In this document: positions 9,501 through 26,259 of the stretch, one piece after another
Layout: every line of letters begins with the position of its first letter
Numbering within the stretch: position 1 is the stretch's first letter
DNA from: Candidatus Desulfarcum epimagneticum
GTDB taxonomy: Bacteria > Desulfobacterota > Desulfobacteria > Desulfobacterales > CR-1
Length of the DNA: 60,984 bases
Assembly (NCBI GenBank): GCA_900659855.1
Contig: CAACVI010000045.1
Location: 1 to 60,984, forward strand
Direction of reading: 5' to 3'
The notes under the pieces: generated by a model
Told to the model about the DNA's origin: nothing
What the model saw: only the letters and a program-made list of their open reading frames with translations
Database searches by the model: none
Program-made: the position numbers and the translations under genes

Positions 9501-9868
9501 GCTTTTTTATCAAAAAATAAAGGAACTACCCATCTGTTGTCAAGGCAAAAAAATATTATTTTTGTCTCGATCCCATTTTTCCCGCCTTCACGCCTTTCTG
9601 ATCTAAACCATTTCCTGTCCACATTCTGCCGAATTCATTCCTTTTTTCACTCTATCTAAAATGGCGGTTTCAAAAGCCAGGGGCGTTTCACGAAACGCCC
9701 CTACCCCGGAAATCATCCCCATGCCGCGCCCATGACTGGGCGTTTATCCCCATCATGGTCCGCGCAAAACAAACCGGGAACACAAAAATCAAAATAAACA
9801 AACCGGACGAATATTTTTCCCTTGACTTTAAACGCAAAATAAATTAGATGTTATTTTTTGTGTGAGAT
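9501..9868. other. Gene-free stretch left of tRNA-Asn
   Basis: AT-rich, with dispersed repeat copy 3 (9666-9762). The tRNA promoter should lie here; TTGACT near 9830 is a weak -35 candidate. Nothing else is recognised. Confidence 0.5.
9666..9762. repeat. Dispersed intergenic repeat, copy 3
   Basis: It carries the best-preserved palindrome (AGGGGCGTTTCACGAAACGCCCCT), followed by the shared CCCATGCCGCGCCCATGACT and GCGTTTATCCCC blocks of copies 1 and 2. Confidence 0.8.
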
Positions 9869-11497
9869 TCCCCAGTAGCTCAGTTGGCAGAGCAAGTGGC
9901 TGTTAACCACTGGGTCCGCGGTTCGAGTCCGTGCTGGGGAGCCAGATAAACCAAAAGGCAGAACTCCGTCCATCGGGGTTTCTGCCTTTTTTCTTTGAAT
10001 CGAGGGGATTGTGTACTCAATGTCGACCTTGGGGTGGTTAACATTGATGCGTTTGATAAAGGATTTGAGGAAGGCTTTTTGTTCGACGATGGAGCCTTTT
10101 TTCAAGAGATCGGCCAGATCGTCCACGTAGTATTTAAGGGCGGATTGATTAAAGGGTGGCCGGGTTTGTTCGGTTTTGGCCCGGATGATTTCCTCTTTTT
10201 TGTTTTGCATCTCATCAATTTGGGTTTTCAATGATTTGATCCTGGGCGCCAGATCGTCAATGTCAAGTTTCCCGGTCTCCAAAGCATCGTAGAGTTTTGA
10301 AAGACGCTGATTTAACGTTCCGATTTGTCGGTCAATGGTTTTCACTCTTTGGTGGACATCTTTATTCTTCTGGCTAATCTCTTCCAGCACAATTCGCCAG
10401 AGTGCGGCAAGATTGTCTTCTGTCAGAACATGGGTTTTTATTCGACCAATCACCAGCCGTTCAATTTCATTTCGGTTGGCGAGTTTCATGTCGCAAACAT
10501 TTTTTCCGCGTTTCAAATAATTTTGACATCCATAATAAAAAAAGGTCCCGGATTTGGCCGATGATCCCACCATCTTTGCGCCGCATTTTCCGCAATAAAC
10601 AAGTCCGCTCAAAAGATACCGGCTACTGTTTTGCCTCGGTGGAGTGATTTTGGGGCTTCTGCTTTTCATCATTTTCTGAACGGATTCAAACGTAATCCTG
10701 TCAACAATGGGTGTATGATTGTCATTAACGCGAACCATATCCTCTGGATTGTTTTCAGTGATACGGTTTTTGCTTTTTCGGTTATAGACCAGTGTTCCGG
10801 TGTAGGCCTCATTTTTCAGGATGTATCCGACAGTCGATTTGCTCCAGGGTTTGCCTTTAGGGGTTTTCAAACTTTCGGTGTTGAGGGTTTTGGCGATCTC
10901 TTTGATGCCGTTATTGTCCAGATACATTTGAAATACGCGTTTCACCACAGGCCCATAGTCGTCATCCAACTCCAGTTTTGTCCTTTTGGTGGCGCCGTCC
11001 ATGACATGTCTGGCTTTGTAGCCGATGGGAATGCTCCCGTTGTGAAAGCCCCTGGCGGCGTTTTCCTTAAGACCCCTGAGCGTGTCCTGGGCCAGGTTCA
11101 AGGAGTAAAATTCATCAATAACTTCGATTATCCCTTCCAAAAGTTTTCCTGCCGGCGTGTCGTCCACCTGTTCATTAATAGAGATAACGGAAATGCCGTG
11201 TCTGCGAAGCAATGATTTATAGATGATGGCGTCTTCCCGGTTTCTGGCAAACCGTGAATGTTTCCATATCAAGATAGCCTCAAAGGGCTTTGATCTTTTC
11301 CGGGCAAACGCGATCATTTCCTGAAAGGCCGGACGTTTGTCGGTTCTGGCGCTTTCCGCTTCATCGACAAATTCCCTGACAACCTGCCAGTTTTTCTTTT
11401 TTGCAAAGTTTCTCAATGCCTTGAGTTGGGCGGCAATGGACAGGTCCTTCTCCGCCTGTTTTTCCGATGACACCCTGGCGTATAATGCGACGTTCAT
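9851..11497 (-). CDS. Large serine recombinase (integrase), C-terminus exchanged by integration
   Basis: A 548-residue recombinase. The resolvase domain opens with LYARVSSEKQ (catalytic Ser10), followed by the recombinase domain (GYKARHV, TGTLVYN), a zinc ribbon (CGKCGAKM, later C..C) and a long coiled coil near 390-440. It should integrate and excise the element. The real oddity is the end: codons 519-521 (Gly-Ser-Pro) are the att core. The last 27 residues are encoded by the antisense of tRNA-Asn and its flank (ARTRTADPVVNSHLLCQ). In the circle the frame would instead continue into the helix-turn-helix frame at 25878-26258. It overlaps the ImmA-like gene by ATGA, so it belongs to the regulator operon. 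Confidence 0.9.
   Translation of the reverse strand: MNVALYARVSSEKQAEKDLSIAAQLKALRNFAKKKNWQVVREFVDEAESARTDKRPAFQEMIAFARKRSKPFEAILIWKHSRFARNREDAIIYKSLLRRHGISVISINEQVDDTPAGKLLEGIIEVIDEFYSLNLAQDTLRGLKENAARGFHNGSIPIGYKARHVMDGATKRTKLELDDDYGPVVKRVFQMYLDNNGIKEIAKTLNTESLKTPKGKPWSKSTVGYILKNEAYTGTLVYNRKSKNRITENNPEDMVRVNDNHTPIVDRITFESVQKMMKSRSPKITPPRQNSSRYLLSGLVYCGKCGAKMVGSSAKSGTFFYYGCQNYLKRGKNVCDMKLANRNEIERLVIGRIKTHVLTEDNLAALWRIVLEEISQKNKDVHQRVKTIDRQIGTLNQRLSKLYDALETGKLDIDDLAPRIKSLKTQIDEMQNKKEEIIRAKTEQTRPPFNQSALKYYVDDLADLLKKGSIVEQKAFLKSFIKRINVNHPKVDIEYTIPSIQRKKAETPMDGVLPFGLSGSPARTRTADPVVNSHLLCQLSYWGISHKK
9869..9944 (+). tRNA. tRNA-Asn (anticodon GTT)
   Basis: The cloverleaf is complete. The acceptor TCCCCAG pairs with CTGGGGA, and the D-arm is GCTCAGTTGGCAGAGC. 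The anticodon stem-loop is TGGCTGTTAACCA with GTT at 9902-9904, and the T-arm is GCGGTTCGAGTCCGT. The CCA is encoded (9942-9944). Its last nine bases are the integration core of the element to the right. The tRNA stays intact, but the terminator behind it is now the element's. Confidence 0.97.
9936..9944. other. attL core
   Basis: GGGGAGCCA at the tRNA 3' end is repeated at 26251-26259 (attR). The recombinase gene reads into it on the minus strand. Confidence 0.75.
9953..9992 (+). terminator. Terminator behind tRNA-Asn, supplied by the element
   Basis: AAAAGGCAGAA pairs with TTTCTGCCTTTT across a 15-base loop, followed by T-rich DNA. It replaces the native tRNA terminator now found at 26268-26292, and it also codes for recombinase residues just before the att core. 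Confidence 0.75.
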
Positions 11498-12456
11498 CTT
11501 ACACCTCTAAATATTGAAAGATTATAGTGAGGTACGTTTTTACGTCCTGCAAGTTCAGTCATATCCAAATGTTCTGAAGGAATGATGTGTATCAACACTT
11601 TCGACGGATATTCATCCTCTTTCCAATATACCAGCCGGATAAGCATATCAATTTCAAGATGCTTGTCTTTAAATTCCATCATCACATTTTGAAAAAACAT
11701 ATCTTCCTTGGCTTTAATAATTTGTCTCATGAAACATTTATCAATATCATCATAAATAATGATATTGTTTACTTCTTTTTTTCCCATCCTGAATTTAAAG
11801 CCTTTGCTTTTCCCAAGGCACCTGAACTTTAGCCGGGGAATTCTGCCGTTTGGCCTTTCTTCCCAATACGGCCTGTGATACAAAAGGCTGATTAAAGGTA
11901 TAGGTTTTTTTGTCTCTTCCTTTACGTAATGATATAAAACATCATGAAATCTGATAAGCGCAGTTGCATAAGAACAATTCAAGGATTTTTGTAACAAGAA
12001 AACATCAAAACCATATCCATTTATTCGATTTAAAACCTCATCGCCAGGAACATGAACTTCTGCCGAAAATTGATCTGCAATACGTTCCAAAAGATATTTG
12101 TTTTCTGATGTTTCGATATATTTCTTATTCAAAATTTTTTTTATAAAAATTTCGCACAACTCATGCAGAATCGTATGAATTTGACTGCAAGGCGCGTCAT
12201 TCTCTTTAATGAATATGATGATATCTTCTCCGTGGCTACAGCTTAAACCTCTTGTCTCCGGGCCATCCGGCAAAAAATTAATTTCGATACCCGAAGAAAA
12301 ACAAAGTGATGTAAGATGATCCATTTCCAAAGGATAACTCAGATTAAAAAAATCGACAAATTTGGATGCAATGGAAGAAATATTATCTTCAATAGAACTC
12401 AAACCAGTCGAATTGTCTGATATTCCAGCGACTTTACAAAAAAAATTATTAATCAT
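11494..12456 (-). CDS. ImmA/IrrE-like protein with altered metal motif
   Basis: A 320-residue protein that resembles ImmA/IrrE metallopeptidases. The active-site helix reads HTILHELCEIF, so the usual HExxH is HExxE here. This could be a gluzincin-like variant or an inactive copy. ImmA proteins cleave the XRE repressor of the same element after DNA damage and so trigger excision. The gene sits between an XRE regulator (ATGA overlap at 12453-12456) and the recombinase (ATGA overlap at 11494-11497), the expected place for that role. The C-terminal 150 residues are not recognised. Confidence 0.65.
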   Translation of the reverse strand: MINNFFCKVAGISDNSTGLSSIEDNISSIASKFVDFFNLSYPLEMDHLTSLCFSSGIEINFLPDGPETRGLSCSHGEDIIIFIKENDAPCSQIHTILHELCEIFIKKILNKKYIETSENKYLLERIADQFSAEVHVPGDEVLNRINGYGFDVFLLQKSLNCSYATALIRFHDVLYHYVKEETKKPIPLISLLYHRPYWEERPNGRIPRLKFRCLGKSKGFKFRMGKKEVNNIIIYDDIDKCFMRQIIKAKEDMFFQNVMMEFKDKHLEIDMLIRLVYWKEDEYPSKVLIHIIPSEHLDMTELAGRKNVPHYNLSIFRGVR

Positions 12457-12878
12457 TTTTGGTACGCATTTTCCAATATTTTTTTGTTCGTAAATTTTTC
12501 ATACATTTCGATGATGAACCGTTTGGTTTCCAAATCCGGTTTTCCTTTCAATCGTGTCCCATAATTGAAGGTTGGATCATTGACAACATGAAGAAACGCT
12601 TTATCGATTTTTTGTTCATATGTTTCTTCAATTTCATTACTTCCAAAATATCCGGCTTTTTGTAATAGTTCACCCATAGAAACGACATAATAATCTGCCA
12701 TTTTTTTTAATCTTTCAGGCTCGGGGATTTTTCTTCTTTCCCCATTTTCTAATTGGGACAAATAAGCATTAGGGATACCTGTAGCCTTTTCTACTTCTCG
12801 AAGGCTCACGCCCTTTTTTTTTCTTAAAGACTTAAGAAAAGCGCCGAGTGGAAATTCCCCTTTCTTCTTTTTCTTCAT
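12453..12878 (-). CDS. XRE-family repressor of the integrative element
   Basis: A 141-residue regulator. A standard XRE helix-turn-helix lies at about residues 12-66 (FLKSLRKKKGVSLREVEKA, then YLSQLENGERR), after a lysine-rich start. The C-terminal part is a probable oligomerisation or ImmA-contact region. GGGAGG precedes the ATG by nine bases. It heads the operon with the ImmA-like protein and the recombinase and faces a divergent cro-like gene across a 186-base region containing a 16-bp palindrome. By analogy with ICEBs1 and phage switches it should keep the element quiescent. Confidence 0.82.
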   Translation of the reverse strand: MKKKKKGEFPLGAFLKSLRKKKGVSLREVEKATGIPNAYLSQLENGERRKIPEPERLKKMADYYVVSMGELLQKAGYFGSNEIEETYEQKIDKAFLHVVNDPTFNYGTRLKGKPDLETKRFIIEMYEKFTNKKILENAYQK

Positions 12879-12956
12879 TATTTAATACCTCCCCGTGTTG
12901 TGATTAATAATAATGCATTCTGCTAATAAATGCAAGCGGAAAATGCTCCCGTTGTC

Positions 12957-12994
12957 TTGACAAGTTAAAAAAAAGCGCTTAATATGCATATTAA
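12957..12994 (+). promoter_or_regulatory. Divergent control region: promoter and palindromic operator
   Basis: TTGACA (12957-12962), a 17-base spacer and TAATAT (12980-12985) drive the rightward cro-like gene. The perfect 16-bp palindrome TTAATATGCATATTAA (12979-12994) covers the -10, a good operator for one or both XRE proteins. Confidence 0.7.
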
Positions 12995-13064
12995 TGAAAG
13001 CGCGGAATGCTCTCAATACGAAGCATAGTATGTATAACTTATTTATTTTGAAGGAGAATAACAA

Positions 13065-13286
13065 ATGAGAGTTTTTTTTAAAACCGACTCTATTAAAAGA
13101 ATTCTGATTCGGAAAAACAAGTCTCAAAATTGGCTGGCCAGCAAAATCAAAGTAAGCAGCGGCTATATGTCCCAACTGATGGAGGGTACGAGAAATCCCT
13201 CCCCCAAGGTACGGGAGCGATTGATGGAAGTTATGAAAGTTTCCAATTTTGACGATCTCTTCCGGATACACGATGAGGAAAGGTAA
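13065..13286 (+). CDS. Cro-like XRE DNA-binding protein
   Basis: A 73-residue helix-turn-helix protein (KSQNWLASKIKVSSGYMSQL, then SPKVRERLMEVM), little more than the DNA-binding domain, as in phage Cro. GAAGGAG precedes the ATG. It is transcribed away from the XRE/ImmA/recombinase operon from the promoter overlapped by a 16-bp palindrome, so it probably represses that operon and opens the replication genes. The stop overlaps the next start (TAATG). Confidence 0.8.
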   Translation: MRVFFKTDSIKRILIRKNKSQNWLASKIKVSSGYMSQLMEGTRNPSPKVRERLMEVMKVSNFDDLFRIHDEER

Positions 13287-13477
13287 TGCTCGCTATCGGC
13301 GTTGAAACATTTGCAAAAGGTTCTGATAAAAATTTGAATGAAGGGTTGCGGATTCTCGCCCGGATAATTGCGCGGAACAGCCTGCCTTATCAAAAAAAAG
13401 CGGCCATAAGCATCGATGCCAAAGGAGAATCAAACCATGAGCGATTCAAAAGAAATCAAAGGCAAATTCAAGTATGA
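13286..13477 (+). CDS. Small protein coupled to the Cro-like gene
   Basis: A 63-residue frame whose ATG overlaps the TAA of the cro-like gene, which suggests coupled translation. The sequence (LNEGLRILARIIARNSL) is mildly basic with a likely helix. No domain is recognised. The 3' end overlaps the next small gene by about 40 bases in another frame, so one of the two could be spurious. Confidence 0.45.
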   Translation: MLAIGVETFAKGSDKNLNEGLRILARIIARNSLPYQKKAAISIDAKGESNHERFKRNQRQIQV

Positions 13478-13610
13478 AAAGGACAGCAAGCGGTATCACC
13501 GGTTCAAAATTGAAACTGATGAAGGCATAGTTGGTAATATTTATGTGCCCAAGGATTCAGAGGGGATACCAAAAAAAATCATTCTGAATAATGCGGCAAA
13601 CGATTCATAA
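13437..13610 (+). CDS. Small conserved-looking protein of unknown function
   Basis: A 57-residue protein starting at 13437, where AAAGGAG lies nine bases upstream. It reads as a compact beta-rich protein (FKYEKDSKRYHRFKIETDEG, then IVGNIYVPKDSEGIPKKI). Similar small proteins accompany replication genes in phages and islands, but I cannot name the family. It lies between the cro-like regulator and the primase-helicase. Confidence 0.6.
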   Translation: MSDSKEIKGKFKYEKDSKRYHRFKIETDEGIVGNIYVPKDSEGIPKKIILNNAANDS

Positions 13611-13674
13611 AGACACCGGTTTATAAAATTAATTCCAAGGCAGACATCGGTCCACCGGCTGGGCTTTGCCACAA

Positions 13675-15963
13675 ATGCAAAATAAAATTATAATGCCAAA
13701 TCATTCACAAATTATTCAGGATTTCAAAAATCAGATCGCGCGGCATGGCATCACGCCGCCTGAGGTCATTGAGTTGGGCAAGATGAACCGATTTCCAGAC
13801 GATGGGAAGCGGGGGAAAGACGGATGGTGTATTCTTTTTGACAATCCAGACGGCACAGCCGGGGGCGCGTTTGGAAACTGGAAAACCGTCAAAGAGAAAT
13901 GGTCTTCAGTCAACGGAAAGAGCTTTGATCCGATTATGTGGAAATCAATAAACCGGGCAATCGAAGCAGAGCTAAAAGAAAGGCAGCGCAAAGCCCGCAA
14001 GGTAGCGGAAAAGATATGCGACCAAGCCAAAAAAATCACCGGTTGCGATCATCCGTATTTAAAAAAAAAGAAAGTCGAGGCTTACGGCATACTCCGAGAC
14101 AAAGCAGACATCATCATACCGATGCGGGATATTAATGGAGATATCCAGACCCTGCAAAGAATTAAGCCAGATGGCTTCAAACTTTTTTTAAGCGGCGGAA
14201 AAACAAAAGGTTATTTTTTTGTCATCGGGGAATTGTCGGGAGCGAAAAAGATTTATATCGCCGAAGGATACGCGACCGCCGCGACAATATACCAGGGGGT
14301 GAATCAAGAATTTCCTGTTGTTGTGGCCTTCAATGCCGGAAACCTTAAACCGGTTGCTTTGAATATCCGGGGAAAACACATGGAAGCTGAAATAATCATT
14401 TGCGCGGATGATGACAGACATTCGGAATCAAAGGGCAAATCAAATGTCGGGATAGAAAAGGCTGAATCGGCGGCGAAAGCGATAAGAGGAAAGGTCGCCT
14501 GTCCGGGGATTGATGGCGATTTTAATGATCTTTATATAGAAAAAGGAATTGAAGCGGTCAGAATGATGCTAAGACAATCAGACAAAAACGAAAAAAACGA
14601 ATTAAATAGTTTTGGTCGAGAACCCGCTGATTATGTTGACAAAAACCAATTGGCGTCTCAACCAAAAAATAACGAAATAAATAACGAAATAAATGATATC
14701 GACTCACAGGAATGGCACGGATGGCCAAAGCTTGACGAAAGGGCTTTTTGTGGGTTTGCCGGCGATTTTGTAAAAATTGCCACGAAAAAAAGTGAAGCCG
14801 ATCCTGCGGCTGTTTTGATCACATTCCTTGTAAGATTTGGGATTGAATGTGGCACGATACCTTTTTTCATCGGAGACACTCCCCATTATCCACGTTTATT
14901 CGCAGTTATAGTTGGGGCCACGTCCAAAGCCCGAAAAGGCACCAGCGCCAGTCCTGTGAAACGATTATTCGCCTTTGAGGACTTTAAAGAGGGAGAAGAT
15001 ACTTTTCTGGGCATTCTGGCAAAAACTTCACCAGGGCCTTTATCGTCCGGTGAAGGCATTGTTTCTGCCGTGCGTGATCCGGCGGAGGAGTGGGACAGTG
15101 GGACGCAAAAAAACATAATTAAATCCCAGGACGTTCAAGATAAGCGGCTTTTTATTTTGGATGAAGAATTCGGAGCCTGCTTGTCCGCCATGAACCGAAA
15201 AGGGAACACGCTTTCCACAACCTTAAGAAGCGCTTGGGACAGCGGAAACATCGAACCCTTGACGAAACACGATAAGATAAAGGCCACCAAGGCTCATTTA
15301 GGAATTGTCACACATGTGACCATTCCTGAACTTAAAGAAAAAATGAATAAAGTTGAGGCATTTTCAGGGTTTTCAAACAGATTCTTATGGATTTGCGCCA
15401 AACGTCAGGGTTTAGTGCCGATTCCCGATCCGATTCCAGAAAATGAATTATACAGGCTGAATGTGGAATTGAAAGACATAATCGAATTTGCGAAAGATGT
15501 GAATCGCATTGTTTTCAGCGATGCGGCGAAGGAGCGCTGGGAAAATATATATCCGAATCTGGCCAAAGACAGAAGCGGCGTGGCAGGCTCTATACTGAAT
15601 AGAGCCGAAGCCCAGACATTAAGATTGGCGATGCATTTTGCTCTTCTGGATAAGAAAAACTCTATCGAAGCGCCTCATCTCAAGGCGGCTCAAGCAATAT
15701 GGGATTATGCGGAAGCCTCTGTGAATTTTATTTTCACCAAAGAGAATGAAAATCCTCTCACAAAGACCATATACAATTTTTTAAAGGAAAAAGGCAAGGC
15801 CACACGCACCGAGATTAATCATTTATTCAAAAACAATATGAAAGCAGACAAGATTCATTCCGCCCTCCAGGAGCTTGAATCACAGGGAAGAATAAAAGCG
15901 GAAAAGAAAAAAAAAGAAGGCCAACCCGGCAGGCCTAAAACATGGTTTGTGTTTTGCAGATAA
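13675..15963 (+). CDS. Toprim primase fused to DUF3987-type helicase (element replication protein)
   Basis: About 762 residues. The N-terminal half resembles plasmid and phage primases: GWCILFDNPDGTAGGAFGNW near 50-70, then a Toprim-like domain (KIYIAEGYATAATIY, later EIIICADDDRH with the metal-binding acids). The C-terminal half resembles DUF3987 ATPases (VGATSKARKGTSASPV as the P-loop region, FILDEEFGACL as Walker B) and ends in a winged-helix tail. It should prime and unwind DNA for replication of the excised element. Start choice is uncertain: ATG 13675 or 13693, neither with a clear ribosome-binding site. Confidence 0.8.
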   Translation: MQNKIIMPNHSQIIQDFKNQIARHGITPPEVIELGKMNRFPDDGKRGKDGWCILFDNPDGTAGGAFGNWKTVKEKWSSVNGKSFDPIMWKSINRAIEAELKERQRKARKVAEKICDQAKKITGCDHPYLKKKKVEAYGILRDKADIIIPMRDINGDIQTLQRIKPDGFKLFLSGGKTKGYFFVIGELSGAKKIYIAEGYATAATIYQGVNQEFPVVVAFNAGNLKPVALNIRGKHMEAEIIICADDDRHSESKGKSNVGIEKAESAAKAIRGKVACPGIDGDFNDLYIEKGIEAVRMMLRQSDKNEKNELNSFGREPADYVDKNQLASQPKNNEINNEINDIDSQEWHGWPKLDERAFCGFAGDFVKIATKKSEADPAAVLITFLVRFGIECGTIPFFIGDTPHYPRLFAVIVGATSKARKGTSASPVKRLFAFEDFKEGEDTFLGILAKTSPGPLSSGEGIVSAVRDPAEEWDSGTQKNIIKSQDVQDKRLFILDEEFGACLSAMNRKGNTLSTTLRSAWDSGNIEPLTKHDKIKATKAHLGIVTHVTIPELKEKMNKVEAFSGFSNRFLWICAKRQGLVPIPDPIPENELYRLNVELKDIIEFAKDVNRIVFSDAAKERWENIYPNLAKDRSGVAGSILNRAEAQTLRLAMHFALLDKKNSIEAPHLKAAQAIWDYAEASVNFIFTKENENPLTKTIYNFLKEKGKATRTEINHLFKNNMKADKIHSALQELESQGRIKAEKKKKEGQPGRPKTWFVFCR

Positions 15964-16251
15964 CCGTCATGACCTGGCGGTCACAACGAAGCATGAAACG
16001 TTTCATATAAAAGGTTAATTTCGTTTTTTTAGTTAAGGCGCCGAAAAATGTCGCGTCATTTATCTCAAACATTCAAGGGGGTTGTGAATTAATTATTTTT
16101 TTAGTTTTTTTCGTGAAAAAATATTGGAAAAGATCATTGCGACTAAACCATGGACAGGGGGGAGGATACCGGATCAGCATATCCCACCGGGACACCCCAT
16201 CTCCTACCGCTCCACACACGTTAGGGGGAGAAAAATCAGGAGGAAAGCCTG
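15964..16251. other. Intergenic region before the excisionase-like gene
   Basis: AT-rich with T-tracts around 16095-16112; no gene or clear hairpin. AGGAGGAAAGCC at its end is the ribosome-binding site of the next gene. Confidence 0.5.
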
Positions 16252-16464
16252 ATGGAAAAAATTTACAATCTTGAACAGCTCAGTGAAAAATTCGGCATCA
16301 GCGTCAGGACATGGCGGGAGTATATCAAAAAAAGAGAGCTGAAGGCGTCCAAGATAGGCCGGTCTTTTTTTGTGTCCGATTATGACCTGCTGGTTTTTTT
16401 CAAAAAGAATGAAGCCTATTCCTGGCGAAAAAAAGGGGACTACCCCTTTGATGATCTTTTGTGA
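16252..16464 (+). CDS. Excisionase / MerR-type helix-turn-helix protein
   Basis: A 70-residue protein with the Xis-like winged helix pattern: YNLEQLSEKFGISVRTWREY, then KKRELKASKIGRSFFVSD. Such proteins bend DNA at att sites as recombination directionality factors or act as small regulators. AGGAGG lies eight bases before the ATG. As the only Xis-like gene in the island it is the natural partner of the serine recombinase, although such recombinases often use unrelated factors. Its end overlaps the next gene. Confidence 0.75.
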   Translation: MEKIYNLEQLSEKFGISVRTWREYIKKRELKASKIGRSFFVSDYDLLVFFKKNEAYSWRKKGDYPFDDLL

Positions 16465-16955
16465 AAGAATTCGGCGGGTTTTCAGTGGGAACCCCGAAAC
16501 AAAACCACAAATCGCCAAAAAAGAGCGAATTGCCAAAAACTTCTGGGTTGAATTTTTGCGGTCATGCTCAAAAATACCCCTGCGGGCCGCACACACACTG
16601 CGCGAACAGGCGTTTTGGAAGAAATATGGAAATTGAAATTCTCAGAAAGAACGGTCGGGAAGTCGTGAACCTCAATCGCCGGAAAGCGATCCGGGAGAAA
16701 TGTTTGAACTGCGCCGGATGGCAGCCCAGGGAAGTGAGAGAATGCGGTTTTTCTGACTGCGCCCTGCATCCATTTCGTTCCGGCCGGGGCAGGCAGAACC
16801 CGAAGGCCAGGGCCGGGGCGATTCGGAAATATTGTCTGTGGTGTATGAATGGACAAAGATCAGAGATTGCGAAATGCGTATGCCCGGATTGTCCGCTTTT
16901 TCCCTACCGCAAACATAAGGTGGACAGATCGTTTAAAATCAAATCCTATGCCTGA
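16461..16955 (+). CDS. Cysteine-rich zinc-finger-like protein
   Basis: A 164-residue protein starting at GTG 16461, which overlaps the previous stop. It has three cysteine clusters: CGHAQKYPCGPHTHC near 33-47, CLNCAGW..CGFSDCALHPFR, and CLWCMNG..CVCPDCPLFPYR. The last two are repeats of one unit (CxxC then CxxxC/CxxC and a hydrophobic-P-[FY]-R ending), a pattern I know from small phage and island proteins. Each unit could bind one metal. A shorter start at ATG 16626 would keep only the two repeats. The biochemical role is unknown. Confidence 0.65.
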   Translation: MKEFGGFSVGTPKQNHKSPKKSELPKTSGLNFCGHAQKYPCGPHTHCANRRFGRNMEIEILRKNGREVVNLNRRKAIREKCLNCAGWQPREVRECGFSDCALHPFRSGRGRQNPKARAGAIRKYCLWCMNGQRSEIAKCVCPDCPLFPYRKHKVDRSFKIKSYA

Positions 16956-17117
16956 AAAAAGGTCATATAGGGGCGTCCGGCGGGGATAAAATGAAATCTG
17001 GATAAGAGGGTATGCGGACACTCAAAGAGACCCCTTTTATTAAGGTACTGTGACAGGATGGATGTTTTTAATGGGCATCCGCATAAAATGCCCGGCCGCG
17101 CGGACCTGTCAAGTACT

Positions 17118-18459: not shown

Positions 18460-18984
18460 TCACAATGCTTTTTCATCGGCCTCCTGAAACGCCGTCTCAA
18501 TCTCCTCAAAAGAAAAGGGGATCAGCCCCCTTTTCTTAAACGAGTACTCCATCGAATCCATTCCCAAAACATGGGCCATGTTCATGTCCGAAAGATCGTG
18601 TCTGTCCTGGAACTCCTGAAAAATTTTTCCGGCGGCCCGGTTTAAAGACAAGGCTTCCGCGTCCGGCTCATCCGGCAGCATGCCGCTTTCTTTCAAATCC
18701 ATCAGCTTTCGGCCCAGGGCGATAAATTCTTCGTACCGAAACCCCAGGAAAGAGGCGACCTGGATTCTTTTCTTTTCCGATAACGGGGACTTGCCTTTGA
18801 TGAAGTTCTTCAAATTCCCCAAAGAGATATTTGGATACTTCTCTTTCATCGGTTTGAATAAATCCGCCCTGAATTTTTCTTCCGTATGCAGGTCCACGTA
18901 ATGTTTCAACGCGACCCTGTGACATTCGGCCACATCTTCAAACGGTTCCTCTCTCTTTTCCGGGCTCTCTTTTTTTCTCATCAT
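18460..18984 (-). CDS. Possible helix-turn-helix regulator
   Basis: A 174-residue, acidic, mostly helical protein. Residues near 50-85 (ISLGNLKNFIKGKSPLSEKK, then VASFLGFRYEEFIALG) resemble an XRE-type DNA-binding segment. A second helical region follows. I start it at ATG 18984, with GGAGG upstream. It is convergent with the zinc-ribbon gene and lies directly downstream of the restriction-modification genes on the same strand. It may regulate them; a specific family is not recognised. Confidence 0.55.
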   Translation of the reverse strand: MMRKKESPEKREEPFEDVAECHRVALKHYVDLHTEEKFRADLFKPMKEKYPNISLGNLKNFIKGKSPLSEKKRIQVASFLGFRYEEFIALGRKLMDLKESGMLPDEPDAEALSLNRAAGKIFQEFQDRHDLSDMNMAHVLGMDSMEYSFKKRGLIPFSFEEIETAFQEADEKAL

Positions 18985-19114
18985 GTGGGCCTCCATTTAA
19001 AATGACGGTGAATGACTGTGGGGAACGGGCCGGGCTCGTTTTGCGGGCATTTGGCTCAACCCGGCGACATTCAGCTTATGCTTCATAACCTGTTTGAATC
19101 GCCCCTTGGCGTGT

Positions 19115-21691
19115 TTATTTTTCCAACGCTTTGTAAAAGCTCTGTTTAAAATTATTTTCATCCGGCTCATCATAGAAAGGAACGCCCACAAGCCTGTATC
19201 TTTCCGCTCGCTTTTGTGTCTTGAATTCCAGAATCCTTCCCTTGAATTTTTCAGTAATCTCTTTTAAAAAATCCTGCTTCCATTCGTCATGCTTTTGGAG
19301 ATGTTTTCCCTTTGGCTCGATGAATATTTGATAGGTTAAGATGTCGCCGGTTTTTTCTTTCAAGAACAAGACAAAATCAGGCTCAAACGCCCGCCCGTCT
19401 AAAAAATTATAAATCTTAAAATGCCTTTCATTTCGCATAAGATATATTCCGTCATATTTTTTTTTCAGTGTGTCCATCTGACGGTCAAACATCGCTACAA
19501 ATCCTTTTTCTTCGCTGGTGCCATAATTTGCGTTAAACGCATACCAGTCCTTGTCTTCGACAAATTGTTCATCGCCATTGGCTCTTTCACTTCCCTCAAC
19601 CAGTTTAAGAACTTTATCTAAAAAAATTGAGGACACATCATTCGGTTTAAATCTCTCCGCGCCCATATATTCCGTTGTATTCTGTTTCAATTCTGTTTCA
19701 ATTTGACCAAGCAACCCCGTCATCGCATCAAGCCGGGCTTTATTGGACAAATTGGATATTTCAGACAACTCGCCTTTAAATGTGACTTCCAGACCGCCAA
19801 GATAATTATCCCCGTCTATAAATTGCCTGACCGACTCAACATGTGGAAAATATTTTTTTATGGTTCCAAAGTTAAAAAAAGGTCGGCGGGAAATGGCATT
19901 GTAAACTATGTGTCTGGGTATCTCCTTGACTGTGACATCTTTTCGCCTTGATTCGTCGACCTTGCCGACATGCCCATTGTCAGACAGGACTGCTCCTGAA
20001 ATTCCCCGGCCGCTCGCGAGACTGTGTTCGTAATTTTTCTTTTTGACGCCGATATCTGAAAATGACCTGACATAATCATAATTATTTTTAACCCGCTCAT
20101 TGATATAGATTAACCCGTTTTTGTAAAATTCCGTTTCCTTGAACGAATCTTTCAATTTGAGTTCCTTCTTGACCTCCCGTTCATCCATCATGCCTTTTTT
20201 AATAAGCGCTTTTTGAAGCTCTGAAATATACCTGGAATCATTGACGCTGTGATAGTGCAGTTCCTCCAAAACTCGTAGCTCATCAGTCAAGTTGCCGTCA
20301 AATTTTCGCTGATATGGGTTGTTATCCCCTTTTATAACAAAGGGGAAATAACGGGCTCCGCGCCCGATTAACTGCGCTTCAGCGATTGTGGTTTTGCCGG
20401 GTTGCCCCGTCCTTGAATCACGGGTGGAATAGCAACGGACAATATCAAATAAGTTAAGGACGTCCCAACCTTCATTTAATTTTTGCACGGCAAAAATGGC
20501 GCGTATGCGGTTATCCCGTTCTTCAAGCGTATTGAGCAATATTTGCTGTTTTTCCTTCTCTTTCTCCTCATTGACTGAAACGCAACGGCTTTCATCAAAC
20601 TCCACGCGCAACCTTTCAGCCAACTGTTCCGGGCTGATCCGATTGCTTTTAAAAAACTCAAACGCCCTTCTTACAAGAGGAATATCAGATTTTTTGCGTA
20701 TCCGCTCAATGTCATCTTTCGAAAGACTTTCAATCAGCTTGTGAAAGTTGGTTTTATTTTTTTTCGACTGCGCGATGGTTTTCTGCGCCTTGAACAATAT
20801 CACCGGTTTTAAATTAATGCGATGCTTGGCGGCCACCTCCTGTTTATACTGACTTAAAACCAGGGCTTGAAGGATGCGATTTTTTTCTTCAAAATCCGCC
20901 TGAACAATATAAACATCCTTGGAATATCCATCGTTCCGAAATTGTTTCAGATCATACCGGTATAAAACCTTATTCCGGTATTTATCCGCAATATCTTTAT
21001 GCGTGTAATCCATTGTGGCGGTAAATTCCAGCAACAAATTGTCATCATTCTGATGAAAAATCCGCTCCACCGTATTTTCCCAACTCTCCAACAGTTTTTC
21101 CTGCGATCTGGTGCGGGTGTTCATGTGGTGGGCTTCATCCGCTAAAAGAACGATTTTTTTGCCCTTGAAATCCTCGTAGGTCAAAGCGTTCTCTTTTGCT
21201 GTGGTCAAGTCGAAATGCAACTTCTGAATGGTTGTGAAACAAATATTGACGCCATCTTCGTGGAGTCCTTGAAAATTGAGAACTGGAGTCACAACGACCC
21301 TTTTTGATCCAAAACGGATGTTTTCGGCAAAAAGATATTTGGATGACAAGGGATTGAGGAAATTATCCCGCGTTTTTTCAATGATATTAGTCGAGTTGAC
21401 AAAAAATAAAAAGTTCCGATAACCTTTCTCATACAGGTAAAGGATCAGTCCGGCCATAATCAAAGTCTTGCCGCTACCGGTGGCCATGTTGAACAGAAAA
21501 TGAAGCGGCCAGTCCTTGTCAGGGCAATCATTGTCCAAACAATAAAAAAATCGAGAAAAAGCTTCCTGCTGATATGGACGGAGTTCAAATTTGGGATTCA
21601 GATTATCGTTGAGAAAATCCGGGATTTCTTTTTTCAAAAACCCCATTTTAGAAACAGCGTCTAATTCTTCATGTAAAAACTTGCCAGCCAT
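19115..21691 (-). CDS. res: Type III restriction enzyme, Res subunit
   Basis: An 858-residue superfamily 2 helicase-nuclease. Walker A is MATGSGKT near residue 70, the DEAH box is LLADEAHHM near 195, and motif VI-like sequence appears as AQLIGRGARYFPF. The C-terminal nuclease has the PD-(D/E)xK pattern FEPDFVLFLKE..FIEPKGKH. With Mod it cuts DNA after ATP-driven communication between two head-to-head unmethylated sites. The ATG overlaps the TAA of the mod gene (TAATG), so production is coupled. Length and motifs are complete, so it looks functional. Confidence 0.92.
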   Translation of the reverse strand: MAGKFLHEELDAVSKMGFLKKEIPDFLNDNLNPKFELRPYQQEAFSRFFYCLDNDCPDKDWPLHFLFNMATGSGKTLIMAGLILYLYEKGYRNFLFFVNSTNIIEKTRDNFLNPLSSKYLFAENIRFGSKRVVVTPVLNFQGLHEDGVNICFTTIQKLHFDLTTAKENALTYEDFKGKKIVLLADEAHHMNTRTRSQEKLLESWENTVERIFHQNDDNLLLEFTATMDYTHKDIADKYRNKVLYRYDLKQFRNDGYSKDVYIVQADFEEKNRILQALVLSQYKQEVAAKHRINLKPVILFKAQKTIAQSKKNKTNFHKLIESLSKDDIERIRKKSDIPLVRRAFEFFKSNRISPEQLAERLRVEFDESRCVSVNEEKEKEKQQILLNTLEERDNRIRAIFAVQKLNEGWDVLNLFDIVRCYSTRDSRTGQPGKTTIAEAQLIGRGARYFPFVIKGDNNPYQRKFDGNLTDELRVLEELHYHSVNDSRYISELQKALIKKGMMDEREVKKELKLKDSFKETEFYKNGLIYINERVKNNYDYVRSFSDIGVKKKNYEHSLASGRGISGAVLSDNGHVGKVDESRRKDVTVKEIPRHIVYNAISRRPFFNFGTIKKYFPHVESVRQFIDGDNYLGGLEVTFKGELSEISNLSNKARLDAMTGLLGQIETELKQNTTEYMGAERFKPNDVSSIFLDKVLKLVEGSERANGDEQFVEDKDWYAFNANYGTSEEKGFVAMFDRQMDTLKKKYDGIYLMRNERHFKIYNFLDGRAFEPDFVLFLKEKTGDILTYQIFIEPKGKHLQKHDEWKQDFLKEITEKFKGRILEFKTQKRAERYRLVGVPFYDEPDENNFKQSFYKALEK

Positions 21692-23733
21692 TACGCATCC
21701 TCCCCGTAAAATGACCGATTCATTTTTTTATCTTCTTCGCTGACTTTAAAATCCTCATCGTCTATTTCCGAAAGGTTTACGTAAAGCTGATTTTTGTTCA
21801 GCAATTCCGCAAGCCGCCTCTTTTGCTTCTCCAGCCCGTTTTGAGATTTGCAGATCTCGATAAAATCATTGACCGCCTCTTCCGGCATTTCAGGATTGAC
21901 ATACCAATTCAAAAAAGAATTTTCAGATATGTTTTTCCAAACCTCCACAAGTTGTTCGGATGATTCAGCGGCTTGAATCTTATCAATAAAGGCTTCGTTG
22001 TATTTCATCAGCTCGCAGTAAATGAAGTCGCCGCCGCCTTGCCAGTTGACAGAATCCGAGATACCGGATTGATCGCCATCAATGACGTTTTGGAGTCTTA
22101 TAACACTATCATTGTTTCCGTAATACAATTGTTCAATACCAATGTATCGCCGCCCCATTTTATGAGCTACAGCACAAGTTGTGCCACTGCCAAGATGATA
22201 ATCAAGAACTAAATCGTTCTCAGTAGTTGCCAGTTTTATTAATCTTTGTAATATTTTTTCGGGCTTTTTCCCATTTTTTAAAGTATTGCTACCCTCATTT
22301 TCTAAACCCGTCGTTTTAATATCATACCATAAATCGCATAATCCAGTTTTTAGATGATCTTCTGCGAATAATAATTGAACACGTGGGTTCTTCGTTTCTT
22401 CGGGATAATCTGCTTTAACAATATATGGTATTTTATCACGCACAGAAAAAACACAAAAAATTTTATTTAGATTTTTCTTTCGTTTCTCGTCAGTTAATCT
22501 TTTTACATTTTCTCCCGCAGCACTTCTGGTAATCCTGTATGCATTTTTATGCAACCACAGTAACTGCTCATTCTTTTTGATATTTAATTCATCTATTTTT
22601 TTGTCAATACTGACTAATTGCACTTTTGAAAATATTTCATCCAATCTTTCCTCGTGTTTTGAATCTCTATTTTCTTTTTCTGTCATCAGCAATCTGTCTA
22701 AATATTCTTTTTCACTTTTTGTAAAATTCTCTAAAAATAACTTATATTCACTGTCCCATTTGTCTTTATCAATTTTTACGGGATTCAATTCTGCAAATTT
22801 TGTGTTTTTATAAATAAGTATATATTCTTTTATTTTAGGTAGTCTTTTTGCTGTATGCGCCATTTTTTTTCCCGAACTTTCTGACATTTTCACAGCGATA
22901 CAATTTACAAAATTCTCTCTTTCAAATATTTCATCGCATAAAACTTTTAAATAGGCCTGCTCTCTATCATCTATTTGAATACAAAAAAAACCATTTGGGG
23001 TTAACAATTTTTTTACTACCATTAAACGATTCTTCATAAAAGTAAGCCAAGTAGAATGATTAAAATTATCATTATAACCAAAAGAATCATTTCCAGTATT
23101 ATACGGCGGATCAATATAAATCAGCTTAACCTTGCCCCGAAACTGCTTTTTCAGCGTATGCAACGCCAGAAGATTATTCCCCTTGATAATCAAATTTTCC
23201 CGGATCGTTCCATCCTCATCCCGTTTGATCTCCGTAACCTTTTGCTCCCCGTCAACCGTGTGCCGTTTCCAGTTGGTCAACACCTTTGGATCAAAAAGCC
23301 GGTCAATCTCATCCTGGGCCAAAATTTCATTGAAAAATATTTCCTTGCGCTTTTCTTCCTCCTTGGTCTGCCCGCCTTCCAGCACACAATCCTTATAAGG
23401 CCAGACAAGAGACACCTCGCCTCGTTCCCGCAAAAATTTGCCGTCAATATTCAGACCGATCTTGTTTCTGAACCGGGTGTAGGAGTTGGACAAGAAATTC
23501 TTGTCGGATACGTATTCGATAAAGGTGTTGATATTGAAAATCCAGTGTCCTTCAATCTCGTCAAAAAATTTATCCTTTATTTCGGGATTCCCAAGCAACA
23601 ACTTCACCAGTTCCCTGTCAATCTTCCATGCCCCATCTGTCACCGCCGCCTTTAGCAACTCCCCCTCATCGTCCACAAACCGGGAATCCGTTTTCAGAAG
23701 TTCAATCAATTTTTCATTAAATTTTTTTGACAT
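21691..23733 (-). CDS. mod: Type III DNA methyltransferase, Mod subunit
   Basis: A 680-residue N6-adenine methyltransferase of the beta group. The catalytic motif IDPPYNTG lies before the AdoMet motif DYHLGSGTT, as expected for this order. The central 250 residues are AT-rich in DNA and low in similarity, which fits the target-recognition domain. An N-terminal region (LKTDSRFVDDEGEL) is typical of Mod proteins. It modifies one strand of an asymmetric site and guides the Res subunit encoded directly downstream. The base composition of the target-recognition part differs from the flanks, a sign of exchange. Confidence 0.92.
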   Translation of the reverse strand: MSKKFNEKLIELLKTDSRFVDDEGELLKAAVTDGAWKIDRELVKLLLGNPEIKDKFFDEIEGHWIFNINTFIEYVSDKNFLSNSYTRFRNKIGLNIDGKFLRERGEVSLVWPYKDCVLEGGQTKEEEKRKEIFFNEILAQDEIDRLFDPKVLTNWKRHTVDGEQKVTEIKRDEDGTIRENLIIKGNNLLALHTLKKQFRGKVKLIYIDPPYNTGNDSFGYNDNFNHSTWLTFMKNRLMVVKKLLTPNGFFCIQIDDREQAYLKVLCDEIFERENFVNCIAVKMSESSGKKMAHTAKRLPKIKEYILIYKNTKFAELNPVKIDKDKWDSEYKLFLENFTKSEKEYLDRLLMTEKENRDSKHEERLDEIFSKVQLVSIDKKIDELNIKKNEQLLWLHKNAYRITRSAAGENVKRLTDEKRKKNLNKIFCVFSVRDKIPYIVKADYPEETKNPRVQLLFAEDHLKTGLCDLWYDIKTTGLENEGSNTLKNGKKPEKILQRLIKLATTENDLVLDYHLGSGTTCAVAHKMGRRYIGIEQLYYGNNDSVIRLQNVIDGDQSGISDSVNWQGGGDFIYCELMKYNEAFIDKIQAAESSEQLVEVWKNISENSFLNWYVNPEMPEEAVNDFIEICKSQNGLEKQKRRLAELLNKNQLYVNLSEIDDEDFKVSEEDKKMNRSFYGEDA

Positions 23734-23791
23734 ACCATATCCTTAAAAAAACTTTTCATGGGCCGCTCTGGATGTTATCCAAAGGCGAATA

Positions 23792-24022
23792 TTATTCCAC
23801 AGAATAATAATTTCCCTTTATGTTCCGGTTAATGTATTTCCCCAAGCCTCCCCCCGCCAAAGCGAGCCCTTGCATCGCCGAAACATGGGATCTTCCGGGT
23901 TTCATTTCATTGTAAACGTAAACGCTTGGGTTTTTAATAAATTTAATCTTGATGGATGTCGGCGTAATCAGATATTCGTCCACTCCTGATTTGCCTCTTA
24001 GATTTGCGTATTTTTTCATCAT
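23792..24022 (-). CDS. Small KTSC-like protein
   Basis: A 76-residue protein starting MMKKYANLRGKSGVDEY. The pattern SIKIKFIKNPSVYVYNE, then HVSAMQGLALAGGGLGKYI resembles small KTSC-type domain proteins found near restriction and stress genes. The role of such proteins is not known to me. It lies upstream of mod on the same strand and may be co-transcribed with the restriction-modification genes. Confidence 0.6.
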   Translation of the reverse strand: MMKKYANLRGKSGVDEYLITPTSIKIKFIKNPSVYVYNEMKPGRSHVSAMQGLALAGGGLGKYINRNIKGNYYSVE

Positions 24023-24101
24023 AATTCTCAAGTTTAAATTCGTCCATTTTTATTTTTTAAAAGATTCAAGATCATCTCAATTTTTATGGGTTGTGGAGGT
24101 T

Positions 24102-24920
24102 TTATTGTAATTTTTTAATAGATGAATTTTCGATTAATAATAACATTTGCTTTCTTGCTAATTTATTAAGAATTTCAATACGATTTATCTGTTCCATTCC
24201 CTGTTCAATTAAAAGTGCGTTTTGGCTTTCGAGGCTTGCAAGCACTACTAATTGTTCCACCGTTGCATAGTCCCGAATATTACCTTTTTTCTTTGGATTT
24301 TTGGCCCTCCACTGTCTGGCTGTTTTGCCAAAAAGAGCCGTATTCAACAAATCAGCTTCGGAGGCGTAGATATGTCCGGCTTGTATATTGGATATTTGAG
24401 GAGGTACAAGATATTTACTGACAGCGTCTGAATGAATGCGATAATGGGCTTTTGTTAATGTCCTTTTAATATCCCATTCAATATGTTCGGAACTTATTTC
24501 CTGCTCTTTTAAACGCTGGAACTCTTTAATAAGATAAAGTTTGAATTCCGGACTTAACCAAGACCCAAACTCAAAGGCGATGTCTTTGTGGGCGAATGTG
24601 CCTCCGTATCTGCCAGCTTTTGCAAAAACACCAATTGCGTTGGTTTGTTTAACCCATTCTTTTACGCTGATTTTAAAGTTGTTAAGTCCAGATCGGGTTT
24701 TAATTATGGCGAATTCGCCATAATTAAAATTTGAATTGTTGATTTTTTCCCATACGCTTAAAAATTCCAGTGTATTACGATTTCGCAACCAGTCGGTAAT
24801 AAAAAAATCACCATCTTTTGCCTTGAGCATATCGGTAATGCAAATATAGTCTTCTTTGTTTTTGGTGGTGATATGTATTTCGGTCTCTTGGACTACAAGG
24901 CTCCTGTTTTTTGGGGGCAT
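24102..24920 (-). CDS. KilA-N domain protein
   Basis: A 272-residue protein. The N-terminal two-thirds match the KilA-N domain: YICITDMLKAKDG, ITDWLRNRNTLEFL, then GVFAKAGRYGGTFAHKDIAF and FGSWLSPEFKLYLIKEFQRL. A C-terminal helical part (TVEQLVVLASLESQNALLIEQ) follows. KilA-N is a DNA-binding fold of phages and islands, often near restriction-modification loci. It is the most upstream gene of the minus-strand block with the type III system, so it may act as a regulator or an additional defence component. Confidence 0.85.
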   Translation of the reverse strand: MPPKNRSLVVQETEIHITTKNKEDYICITDMLKAKDGDFFITDWLRNRNTLEFLSVWEKINNSNFNYGEFAIIKTRSGLNNFKISVKEWVKQTNAIGVFAKAGRYGGTFAHKDIAFEFGSWLSPEFKLYLIKEFQRLKEQEISSEHIEWDIKRTLTKAHYRIHSDAVSKYLVPPQISNIQAGHIYASEADLLNTALFGKTARQWRAKNPKKKGNIRDYATVEQLVVLASLESQNALLIEQGMEQINRIEILNKLARKQMLLLIENSSIKKLQ

Positions 24921-25242
24921 AGGTTTAAACTCCTCTTAAGACTAAGGTGGGCAAGCCGCAATCAAATTATGACACGCTAAAAACGAATATCTCATGGGGA
25001 AAGTATTCTAATGTTTATTCTCAAAATTATGATTATTTAATGATTCTAACAACGTGAATTTACTTTTGCAACAAATAAATAACCGGCGCATAGCCAACCC
25101 GCGCGGCAAAAATGTCTTAGGGCGGTGGGCGGGGGATGTGAGGGCTGGAACTTAAAATAGCGCCGTCGCAGGGCTTGCCTTCGGAGGGCGCGCCCGGCTG
25201 ATGGATAAGGCGAAGAGCGCATGGCGTGAAAAAATGCCCTGA
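24921..25242. other. Gene-free region upstream of the KilA-N gene
   Basis: An AT-rich half (24921-25085) that should contain the KilA-N promoter, then a GC-rich half (25085-25230) unlike the neighbours. No protein-coding signal; a GC-rich frame on the minus strand has no ribosome-binding site. Confidence 0.45.
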
Positions 25243-25326
25243 TTACATAAACTCGCGTTATCATTGACCCAAGCTCCGAAATATATAAAATTATTCGCTT
25301 GGGTCTGATAACGTCTGATTATGTAA
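25243..25326. repeat. 84-bp interrupted palindrome
   Basis: Three nested paired segments: TTACATAA (25243-25250) with TTATGTAA (25319-25326), GTTATCA with TGATAAC, and GACCCAAGC (25266-25274) with GCTTGGGTC (25297-25305). Small unpaired patches and a 22-base AT-rich loop separate them. Confidence 0.75.
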
Positions 25327-25415
25327 GATTCGCATTTTTCATGACATGCGCGTTAATGGCATGGGGAGATGATGGCAATGGGAGGCAAGCTTCTGCGGCG
25401 GCCTACCTTGCTCTT

Positions 25416-25887
25416 TATTAAGATAGTCGCATGGCATGGCCGGTCTGCCGCCATATGACGAGCAGTCCGGGTGTGCCATGCGTTCCGCTGAATGTCTTAT
25501 ACAAATAGGTCGGGCGCGGTTTTCCAGTCTGACGGGCTTTCAGGCTGGAAACCGCGACCATTCCGCATATATTTCCGGACGGGAGCCAAAGCGCGGCGGT
25601 CTGCGTTCTTATACAAATAGTCGCCCGACGTTTTTTTCTCCGCCCTGGATCAAGCGGCGCGTCTGCATGGCGAAAGGCTGCGGAGAAAAAAACGTCGGCG
25701 TCCGCCTTTTTTGTTCCTATACAAATGGGCGCCGGCAGTCCGTCTCCCGGCCATGGACACAGGGAATAAAACCCCGATGTTTGTTCGCCGGGAGTCGGAG
25801 TGTCGGCTTCCGCGTTATTTGTCTTCATACCAATGGCCGCCGGCTGAAGACGGGCTGCGGAATTTTGCAGTCCGTTTTCAGACGGCG
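25416..25887. repeat. Array of five unlike hairpins behind a TATACAAATRG tag
   Basis: A short tag (TATACAAATAG at 25498 and 25610, TATACAAATGG at 25718, decayed forms at 25416 and 25826) recurs every 108-112 bases (82 for the first step). Each tag is followed at once by a long hairpin of different sequence. The paired arms are 25428-25436/25474-25482; 25508-25527/25545-25559; 25625-25642/25681-25698 (18 bp perfect); 25731-25751/25787-25807 (18 of 21); 25838-25853/25872-25887 (14 of 16). Only the tag and a short TCCGC..TCT lead-in are shared. Confidence 0.8.
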
Positions 25888-26258
25888 TTCCTCTTAAAGA
25901 TATTTTCAAGATTTCTTTGCTGTTCAATCACAGAGCAATTGATATAAGGCCTAAGCATTCGTTCTGTTACTATCTGCGATGATAAGGGGTCTCCAAGATT
26001 TTTGACTGCCGTAATAATTTCATCATCCAGTTTTAACAGGCTCATAAATTGGTTAACACGAACTCGGGAAATCCCAAACCTTCTGGCGATGTCTGATTGT
26101 GATTGACATTCTCCATTGTTGATCATATCCGCATATTCTTGTGCCACGTTAATCGGATTACGGTATTTTTTACAATGGGTTATATGTTTTTTGATGGGTT
26201 TTGGAGCAAAGTAAACCGTTGTCGTAAAAGTTCTTTCTATTGGACAGTCCGGGGAGCC
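25878..26258 (-). CDS. Separated C-terminal HTH part of the serine recombinase
   Basis: An open frame that enters the element at the attR core with no start codon or ribosome-binding site of its own. It reads GSP from the core, then DCPIERTFTTTVYF, KKYRNPINVAQEYADMI and a clear helix-turn-helix (SQSDIARRFGISRVRVNQFM), 123 residues past the core. The core codons are in exactly the phase used by the recombinase frame at the left end. In a circular element the two would fuse to a 644-residue recombinase. In the integrated state this part is a silent 3' fragment. The last ten bases overlap the final hairpin of the array. Confidence 0.8.
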   Translation of the reverse strand, partial: GSPDCPIERTFTTTVYFAPKPIKKHITHCKKYRNPINVAQEYADMINNGECQSQSDIARRFGISRVRVNQFMSLLKLDDEIITAVKNLGDPLSSQIVTERMLRPYINCSVIEQQRNLENIFKRNAV

Positions 26259-26259
26259 A
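26251..26259. other. attR core
   Basis: GGGGAGCCA, identical to the tRNA-Asn 3' end at 9936-9944. To its right lies the terminator that would follow tRNA-Asn in the empty chromosome. Confidence 0.75.

Follow-up and report, generated by a model that had tools for sequence, protein, structure and literature searches.

Does a large serine recombinase lose part of its own coding sequence when its element integrates? The question is raised by a locus of Candidatus Desulfarcum epimagneticum (GenBank assembly GCA_900659855.1), for which positions 1 to 60,984 of contig CAACVI010000045.1 (forward strand; the window) were analysed. A sequence-only reading of this DNA had proposed that integration at a tRNA-Asn gene splits the recombinase gene and swaps its C-terminus. 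From the results below, the locus can be taken with good confidence as an integrative island of 16.3 kb that encodes a large serine recombinase, the attachment (att) site of the circular form, attP, lying in frame within the recombinase gene. The features on which this assignment depends are the following.

9851–11497, minus strand: large serine recombinase, integrated form, with 521 codons through the core codons GSP and then 27 residues antisense to tRNA-Asn (frame and Pfam)
25878–26258, minus strand: C-terminal tail frame, 126 codons from the core plus a stop, matching the recombinase in phase in the circle (frame comparison)
9869–9944, plus strand: tRNA-Asn(GTT), the integration target, intact (tRNA call)
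9936–9944, plus strand: att core at the recombinase end (attL), GGGGAGCCA, read on the minus strand as the codons GSP
26251–26259, plus strand: att core at the far end (attR), from sequence identity to the other end
26268–26287, no strand assigned: original tRNA-Asn terminator, moved to the far end, directly 5′ of the tail and terminator-like on both strands (empty-site join and pattern)
25998–26159, minus strand: ParB/Noc-type helix-turn-helix (HTH) in the tail (Pfam stretch)

Element ends and the rejoined recombinase frame

Three copies of GGGGAGCCA are present in the window, at 9936 (+), 26251 (+) and 58295 (−). Exact identity between the two element ends extends over 9 bp. The outer flanks were joined in silico, which placed a terminator hairpin with a T run, AAGCCGTCTTCGGACGGCTTTTTTT, directly behind tRNA-Asn, as expected of the empty site (attB); 26251–26259 is therefore very probably the true attR. 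A pattern scan at the far end counted four terminator-like sites over 1.4 kb where shuffles gave 2.3; the argument for a displaced terminator is therefore carried by the context and not by the scan.

The recombinase meets the core at G519-S520-P521, and its integrated form has 548 residues. The frame 26258–25878 consists of GSP followed by 123 residues. Joining the element ends in silico gave 521 + 123 = 644 residues with no stop, and the predicted in-frame circle junction (across 9945/26250) contains GLSGSPDCPIERTF. The Pfam domains Resolvase, Recombinase and Zn_ribbon_recom follow one another in the order of a large serine recombinase (serine integrase), all three within residues 3–354. The protein was matched to PHROG 95 (integrase, E = 5.5e-121) and, using phmmer, to the SPbeta YokA and A118 integrase structures. 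Its similarity to serine integrases of known structure extends to residue 496. As the catalytic, recombinase and zinc-ribbon domains are all encoded on one side of the split, the integrated gene could still yield a working enzyme.

The tail was identified as HTH_ParB (PF17762; E = 3e-7, 30.9 bits against a cut-off of 22.6). Its structural model had a mean predicted local distance difference test score (pLDDT) of 73, with the first 30 residues poor, and in Foldseek it came closest to the DNA-binding regions of Noc and ParB, the top match being Noc (7ng0; TMq 0.60) at a modest E of 2e-3 and none being found at or below 1e-3. Sequence and fold agree on a ParB/Noc-type HTH.

The coordinates and residue arithmetic of the sequence-only reading were reproduced for the recombinase frame, tRNA-Asn, both cores and the in-phase far frame, as was its helix-turn-helix. 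An out-of-frame junction or a false attR would have spoken against it; the computed junction is in frame, and the rebuilt empty site points to a true attR. Its placement of attP within the recombinase gene agrees with the uninterrupted 644-residue join, and the predicted C-terminus changes as it had described, from the 123-residue HTH tail in the joined form to the 27 antisense residues after GSP in the integrated one. Its notion of interchangeable tails was borne out in part: the C-terminus changes, but the antisense 'second tail' looks incidental, being 1–38 residues long among relatives, and a tail that is removed and restored fits better.

Relatives and paired attachment-site arms

Full-length relatives of the recombinase (46–49% identical; seven of 19 loci, the others being partial or more distant) were found in Melainabacteria, Caenarcanales, Dehalococcoidia, Chloroflexi, Omnitrophota and an unclassified bacterium. 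One further relative was 59% identical (G059), and six came from viral contigs (46–62%). The core was placed in 12 members including the window; L112 and L114 (no tRNA found) and L059 and L115 (truncated by the contig end) were kept outside this count. A target tRNA was called by ARAGORN in ten of the 12 (Asn, Met, Glu, His, Gln and Ala). The core of L110 was located from its sequence; just past it begins a group I intron (RF00028, 86 bits, L110:9599–9833), which apparently interrupts the target tRNA, none being called there. Only a tRNA-Glu 3′ fragment remains at the core of L056.

In all 12 members the recombinase frame runs unstopped into the core in one phase, the first core G being codon position 1, after 511–520 codons. 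A gene whose protein ended near the core would often be expected to carry a stop ahead of it, yet all 12 lack one. The antisense extension into the tRNA varies from 1 to 38 residues from the core, one member leaving its contig end. Because this extension is not conserved, the pressure to keep the frame open and in phase more likely stems from the circle.

The sequence-only reading had proposed looking for the same split in other genomes, and both halves were recovered in two other elements. A 20.9-kb viral contig (G443) carries a recombinase 62% identical to that of the window and a 121-residue tail, which give 638 residues when joined. The second element (G431, Caenarcanales) has a recombinase on one contig and a 119-residue in-phase tail on another, both lying close to where their contigs end. 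Both tails begin at the core in the GSP phase of their own recombinases, and GSP, RTF and YxNPI are common to the three GSP tails (window, G443 and G431). The split is more than chance, since an independent element has the same two in-phase halves on one contig and 11 relatives enter the core in the same phase.

G443 also contains a second, distant serine recombinase (L134:3308–5330; 22% identical), which runs in the WLP phase into the core where the tail of the first element begins, with an inverted repeat just before it. Two elements are apparently in tandem at one att site.

Three further features lie in the arms of the joined site.

9960–9965, minus strand: left P-arm motif AGTTCT, 16 nt from the 8-bp core GGCTCCCC (equal spacing in the window and 11 relatives)
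26229–26234, minus strand: right P-arm motif AGAACT, mirroring the left motif and likewise 16 nt from the core
9953–9990, plus strand: terminator-like hairpin behind tRNA-Asn, within the recombinase codons for KKAETPMDGVLPF (folding z −6.1)

The last base of the left motif (AGTTCT, or GGTTCT in two members) stands exactly 16 nt ahead of the 8-bp core in all 12 members. The right motif (AGAAC, or AAAAC in two) starts exactly 16 nt past the core in seven far-end arms (window, G431, G443, G435, G405 and two in G157). Detection did not depend on the spacing for four of these arms (window, G431, G405 and one in G157); the other three (G443, G435 and the second in G157) came from a pattern that included it. 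Only those pattern matches were used that had further support from tail homology, a tRNA core or a neighbouring hairpin. The G443 arm is independently confirmed, as a search with just the window tail recovers the tail behind that arm (43% identical, E = 7e-28). The right motif is absent from the tRNA side of the recombinase-end junction (12/12) and the left motif from the outer side of the far junction (7/7), so that paired attP arms are present only in the circle.

The joined arms form a 52-bp motif-to-motif dyad centred between GGCT and CCCC (between GGTA and GCCC in G435), the two-fold symmetric attP of about 50 bp expected of a serine integrase. Out of 36 positions, 18 were symmetric in the window (equalled by 13 of 2000 shuffles), 22 in G431 (by none), 16 in G443 (by 42) and 17 in G435 (by 30). 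On sliding the right arm by 1–19 nt, the symmetry was at most 16, 15, 15 and 14, respectively. The attP of serine integrases is described as about 50 bp long with distal zinc-domain motifs 16–24 bp from the centre (PMC3783163). The layout here is the same, with the motif at about 21–27 bp and not 16–24, and by this analogy the P-arm motif would be the zinc-domain site.

Folding of the left arm, read on the tRNA strand, gave a terminator-like hairpin in 11 of the 12 members (z −2.9 to −7.6; none in L113). In a direct tally, in which the compared sequences are related and hence non-independent, all four outer pairs beside the motif form in eight of the 12, three in one and two in two, L113 having no partner. 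The variants include AGGC/GCCT, AGGT/ACCT, AGAG/CTCT and AGAC/GTCT. As the pairs are kept, several having changed on both sides, and AGAAC is fixed, the last codons ahead of the core probably double as the new terminator of the tRNA after integration. A pattern scan of the stretch around 9953–9990 gave five terminator-like sites against 4.2 expected.

Start codons and distribution of the tail

In the open tail frames of G443 and G405 the first ATG, GTG or TTG is codon 64 or 66, inside the HTH; a whole HTH is therefore impossible from a standard start in the integrated state of these two. The window tail has a GTG at codon 37 plus upstream starts and that of G431 in-frame ATGs at codons 12–44, and for these two a separate start is conceivable.

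G405, G157, G607 and G714 have tails that read in a different phase, WLP; G157 holds a frameshifted 2.5-kb remnant next to tRNA-Asn. No recombinase was found beside these four, about 1.5 kb of flank having been inspected for G607 and G714. Neither a right-arm pattern match in the shorter viral records L111–L114 nor a histidine-type right-arm pattern match in G442 was obtained. A three-tail alignment found only the G443 tail among viral contigs.

Eight other tRNA-adjacent serine recombinase elements were rejoined. Five had no second core in the fetched stretch; in-phase tails were obtained in, among others, G057 (14 residues) and G322. The more distant G322 (tRNA-Asn) has three 9-bp core repeats leading to in-phase tails of 20, 30 and 17 residues, and the 30-residue tail resembles one of 33 residues in G102 (WLPLADEIRNFFS...); the two recombinases may gain these tails. 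From the short tails of G322, G102 and G057, C-terminal exchange may be wider than the HTH tail.

Tail-like loci were also classified (n = 51, leaving out L037, L041, L043, L044, L151, L152, L167–L169 and L193–L202). The procedure overlooks any core that falls right at the beginning of the HMM match, and L072 and L123 were assigned by reading. A serine recombinase lies directly upstream in 24. After removal of two duplicates and the G443 tandem junction, 21 distinct loci remain, each with the HTH encoded by its own gene immediately behind the serine recombinase; such two-gene units occur for example in L003, L040, L042, L070, L071, L085 and L093. The ParB-type HTH is on this evidence a recurrent partner of serine recombinases, here fused across attP. 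L039/L178, with TGGCTCCC in frame beside an HTH, were not counted, as this is possibly a coincidence.

Other genes of the element and two side observations are given here. Two genes lie next to the recombinase.

11494–12456, minus strand: IrrE/M78 peptidase-like gene, overlapping the recombinase start, with homologues in L111, L052 and L110
12453–12878, minus strand: HTH_3 regulator, upstream of the recombinase; the loci of several relatives contain homologues

The cargo includes a type III restriction-modification pair (19115–23733; PADLOC REase_III, E = 4e-142, and MTase_III, E = 4e-214), homologous pairs being present in G443 and L065, and a KilA-N protein (24102–24920) that matches the PADLOC family PDC-S22 (E = 4e-123). 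We take PDC to denote a defence candidate. In seven loci (L019, L022, L029, L017, L008, L023 and L063) serine recombinase C-termini such as WLPxxDSN and RGFEP resemble antisense tRNA, a tRNA being called in five, and are likely annotation artefacts. In L056 a gene that resembles a tyrosine integrase by eye (L056:4519–7301) adjoins the serine element at the tRNA-Glu 3′ fragment, perhaps a mixed accretion.

Alternatives, precedents and a possible switch

The explanation that we favour, and consider well founded, is that an in-frame attP splits the recombinase gene, its HTH tail being detached on integration and restored on excision. In the circle the gene would encode 644 residues comprising the catalytic, recombinase and zinc-ribbon domains, a probable coiled coil, an attP-encoded linker and the ParB/Noc-type HTH tail. 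On recombination with the tRNA-Asn 3′ end, the gene would be cut at the core. The tRNA would be unchanged in sequence and would gain the terminator-like hairpin that the left P arm carries within recombinase codons. Of the recombinase, residues 1–521 would be left, plus an incidental antisense tail, and the HTH frame would be stranded behind the old tRNA terminator, apparently silent. Excision would restore the long form. We infer that both protein forms are made and that the HTH acts in the circle only, either as an accessory DNA-binding arm favouring attP synapsis or integration or as a repressor of the circle's own promoter; the integrated form would thereby differ in activity or directionality. 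In all likelihood the split and its in-frame junction are real and under selection, and it is plausible that the tail alters the behaviour of the enzyme with integration state.

Several observations weigh against this explanation. The circle, its excision and its expression are all inferred from sequence alone. An HTH tail was found in three of the 11 family genomes or records (G000, G431 and G443) and in none of G059, G430, G432, G433, G434, G435, G438 and G442, where the best matches were weak (E of at least 0.002, frames of 269–339 residues) or absent; draft genomes among these may miss a tail. For G059, with its 59% identical recombinase, the single tail query gave no match at E ≤ 10 and the three-tail alignment gave only a 339-residue frame (E = 0.07). 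G435 has a right arm with an in-phase tail of only 19 residues, so the HTH is not needed throughout the family. The two halves of G431 sit on different contigs. An uninterrupted recombinase–HTH gene, the homologue of about 640 residues that the sequence-only reading had proposed to search for, was not found with the window tail in phage, plasmid and viral-contig collections. Homologues ending at the core had been named as a further objection: none of the 11 placed-core relatives stops before it, but L111 (tRNA-Gln), which also gave no match in the tail search, stops within the core at the second codon. Its protein may therefore end at the core in either state, and confidence is slightly lowered. 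The right-arm pattern was not enriched (18 matches in 17 records against 22 for a reversed control) and by itself proves nothing. Finally, a point in favour is limited: the tails of the window and G443 differ most at the third codon position (0.51/0.33/0.68 for the three positions; pN 0.39, pS 0.86), residues 1–500 of their recombinases (63% identical) differing by 0.30/0.21/0.59, but synonymous sites are saturated in this comparison, so that it establishes constraint at the protein level and not its strength.

Some of these observations would also suit a recombinase that ends functionally at the core, with an incidental read into the tRNA and a far HTH frame that is a separate gene or remnant starting near attR by chance. 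The variable antisense extension, the L111 stop, the eight family members in which no HTH tail was found, the short G435 tail and the 21 loci with a separate HTH gene all point that way. We nevertheless regard it as improbable: no stop precedes the core in the window or its 11 relatives, HTH tails begin at the core in the recombinase phase in the three elements with both halves assigned and an HTH in the tail, and G443 and G405 have no ATG, GTG or TTG ahead of the HTH. The same lack of a start tells against the tail being expressed from the chromosomal side while the element is integrated, to give a separate protein that acts in trans on the truncated recombinase. Such a protein of 167 residues could begin at an ATG at 26381, the window frame being open for 44 codons upstream of the core, and G431 has its own in-frame ATGs. 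However, the upstream stretch in the window is the old terminator of the tRNA, terminator-like on both strands by pattern, and the frame is closed 12 (G443) and two (G405) codons upstream of the core, which makes this explanation very improbable indeed.

The split, with the changed product, could instead inactivate the enzyme, so that excision would need a copy in trans, as proposed for SSV-type integrases. We think this unlikely, if less so than either of the preceding alternatives. The three Pfam domains and the similarity to solved serine integrases all lie ahead of the split, whereas the archaeal suicidal integrases have their catalytic domain on the severed fragment (PMC8371274).

The detachable tail that we favour has closer precedents than those named in the sequence-only reading, namely the SSV-type integrases and the mycobacteriophage repressors. 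In the integration-dependent immunity of mycobacteriophages attP lies within the repressor gene; here it lies in the recombinase gene. SSV-type integrases, described as exclusive to archaea, share an att site inside int and a gene split upon integration, but are tyrosine recombinases that are divided into a non-catalytic and a catalytic part (PMC8371274); the present enzyme is of the serine type and is not so divided. Nearer are the streptococcal integrative and conjugative elements in rumA, in which rumA and the serine integrase gene swap 3′ ends upon integration (PMC4701971). The likeness, drawn from their description and not from sequence comparison, covers the serine integrase, the att site inside its gene and the C-terminus changed upon integration, and replacement of the 3′ part of int is predicted here also. 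They differ in that the target is a protein gene whose product changes too, and the excerpted text of PMC4701971 mentions no HTH tail, tRNA target or P-arm terminator. One streptococcal integrative and mobilizable element has its site within the serine integrase gene (PMC5357655). In Mx8, attP lies inside int and 112 C-terminal residues are replaced by 13 upon integration, with lower activity (via PMC4701971), but the enzyme is a tyrosine integrase. Dehalococcoides DsiB, a CcrB-like serine recombinase of ssrA islands, overlaps attL and reads antisense into the RNA gene, and its authors suggest full function maybe only on the circle (PMC3146451). Its target is a transfer-messenger RNA, and in the excerpted text the missing 3′ part is not identified. 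C-terminal exchange is thus already known from streptococcal serine integrases and Mx8 and suspected for DsiB, and the present case is a variant of it. No report of a detachable HTH tail or of a tRNA terminator inside a P arm was found in the open-licence literature searched, and the excerpted text of an att-site prediction paper (PMC12884075) contains nothing on an integrase gene split by its own att site.

A central question is what stops serine integrases from reversing their own work, to which the usual answer is a separate directionality factor. Fused modules can alter direction, as laboratory fusions of a recombination directionality factor (RDF) to a serine integrase do so (PMC5737554). 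In those constructs, as proposed here, a regulatory module is fused to the enzyme, but they are artificial, carry an RDF and not a ParB-type HTH and are not undone by integration. It is a tentative proposal, and one that we would not yet favour, that the integration state is written into the integrase, the long enzyme of the circle promoting integration or silencing the circle and the tail-less integrated enzyme having another directionality. Both forms (about 521 and 644 residues) and the 52-bp attP are fully given by the sequence, so that the proposal is directly testable and a compact state-dependent integrase tool is possible. The annotated C-termini of integrated serine integrases can also be wrong where they are read from antisense tRNA. 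If the proposal is true, one stretch of DNA would serve at once as codons, as an arm of attP, as the replacement terminator of the tRNA and as the hinge of a detachable domain; the reaction itself would physically detach that domain from the gene, and the recombination product itself would switch the enzyme.

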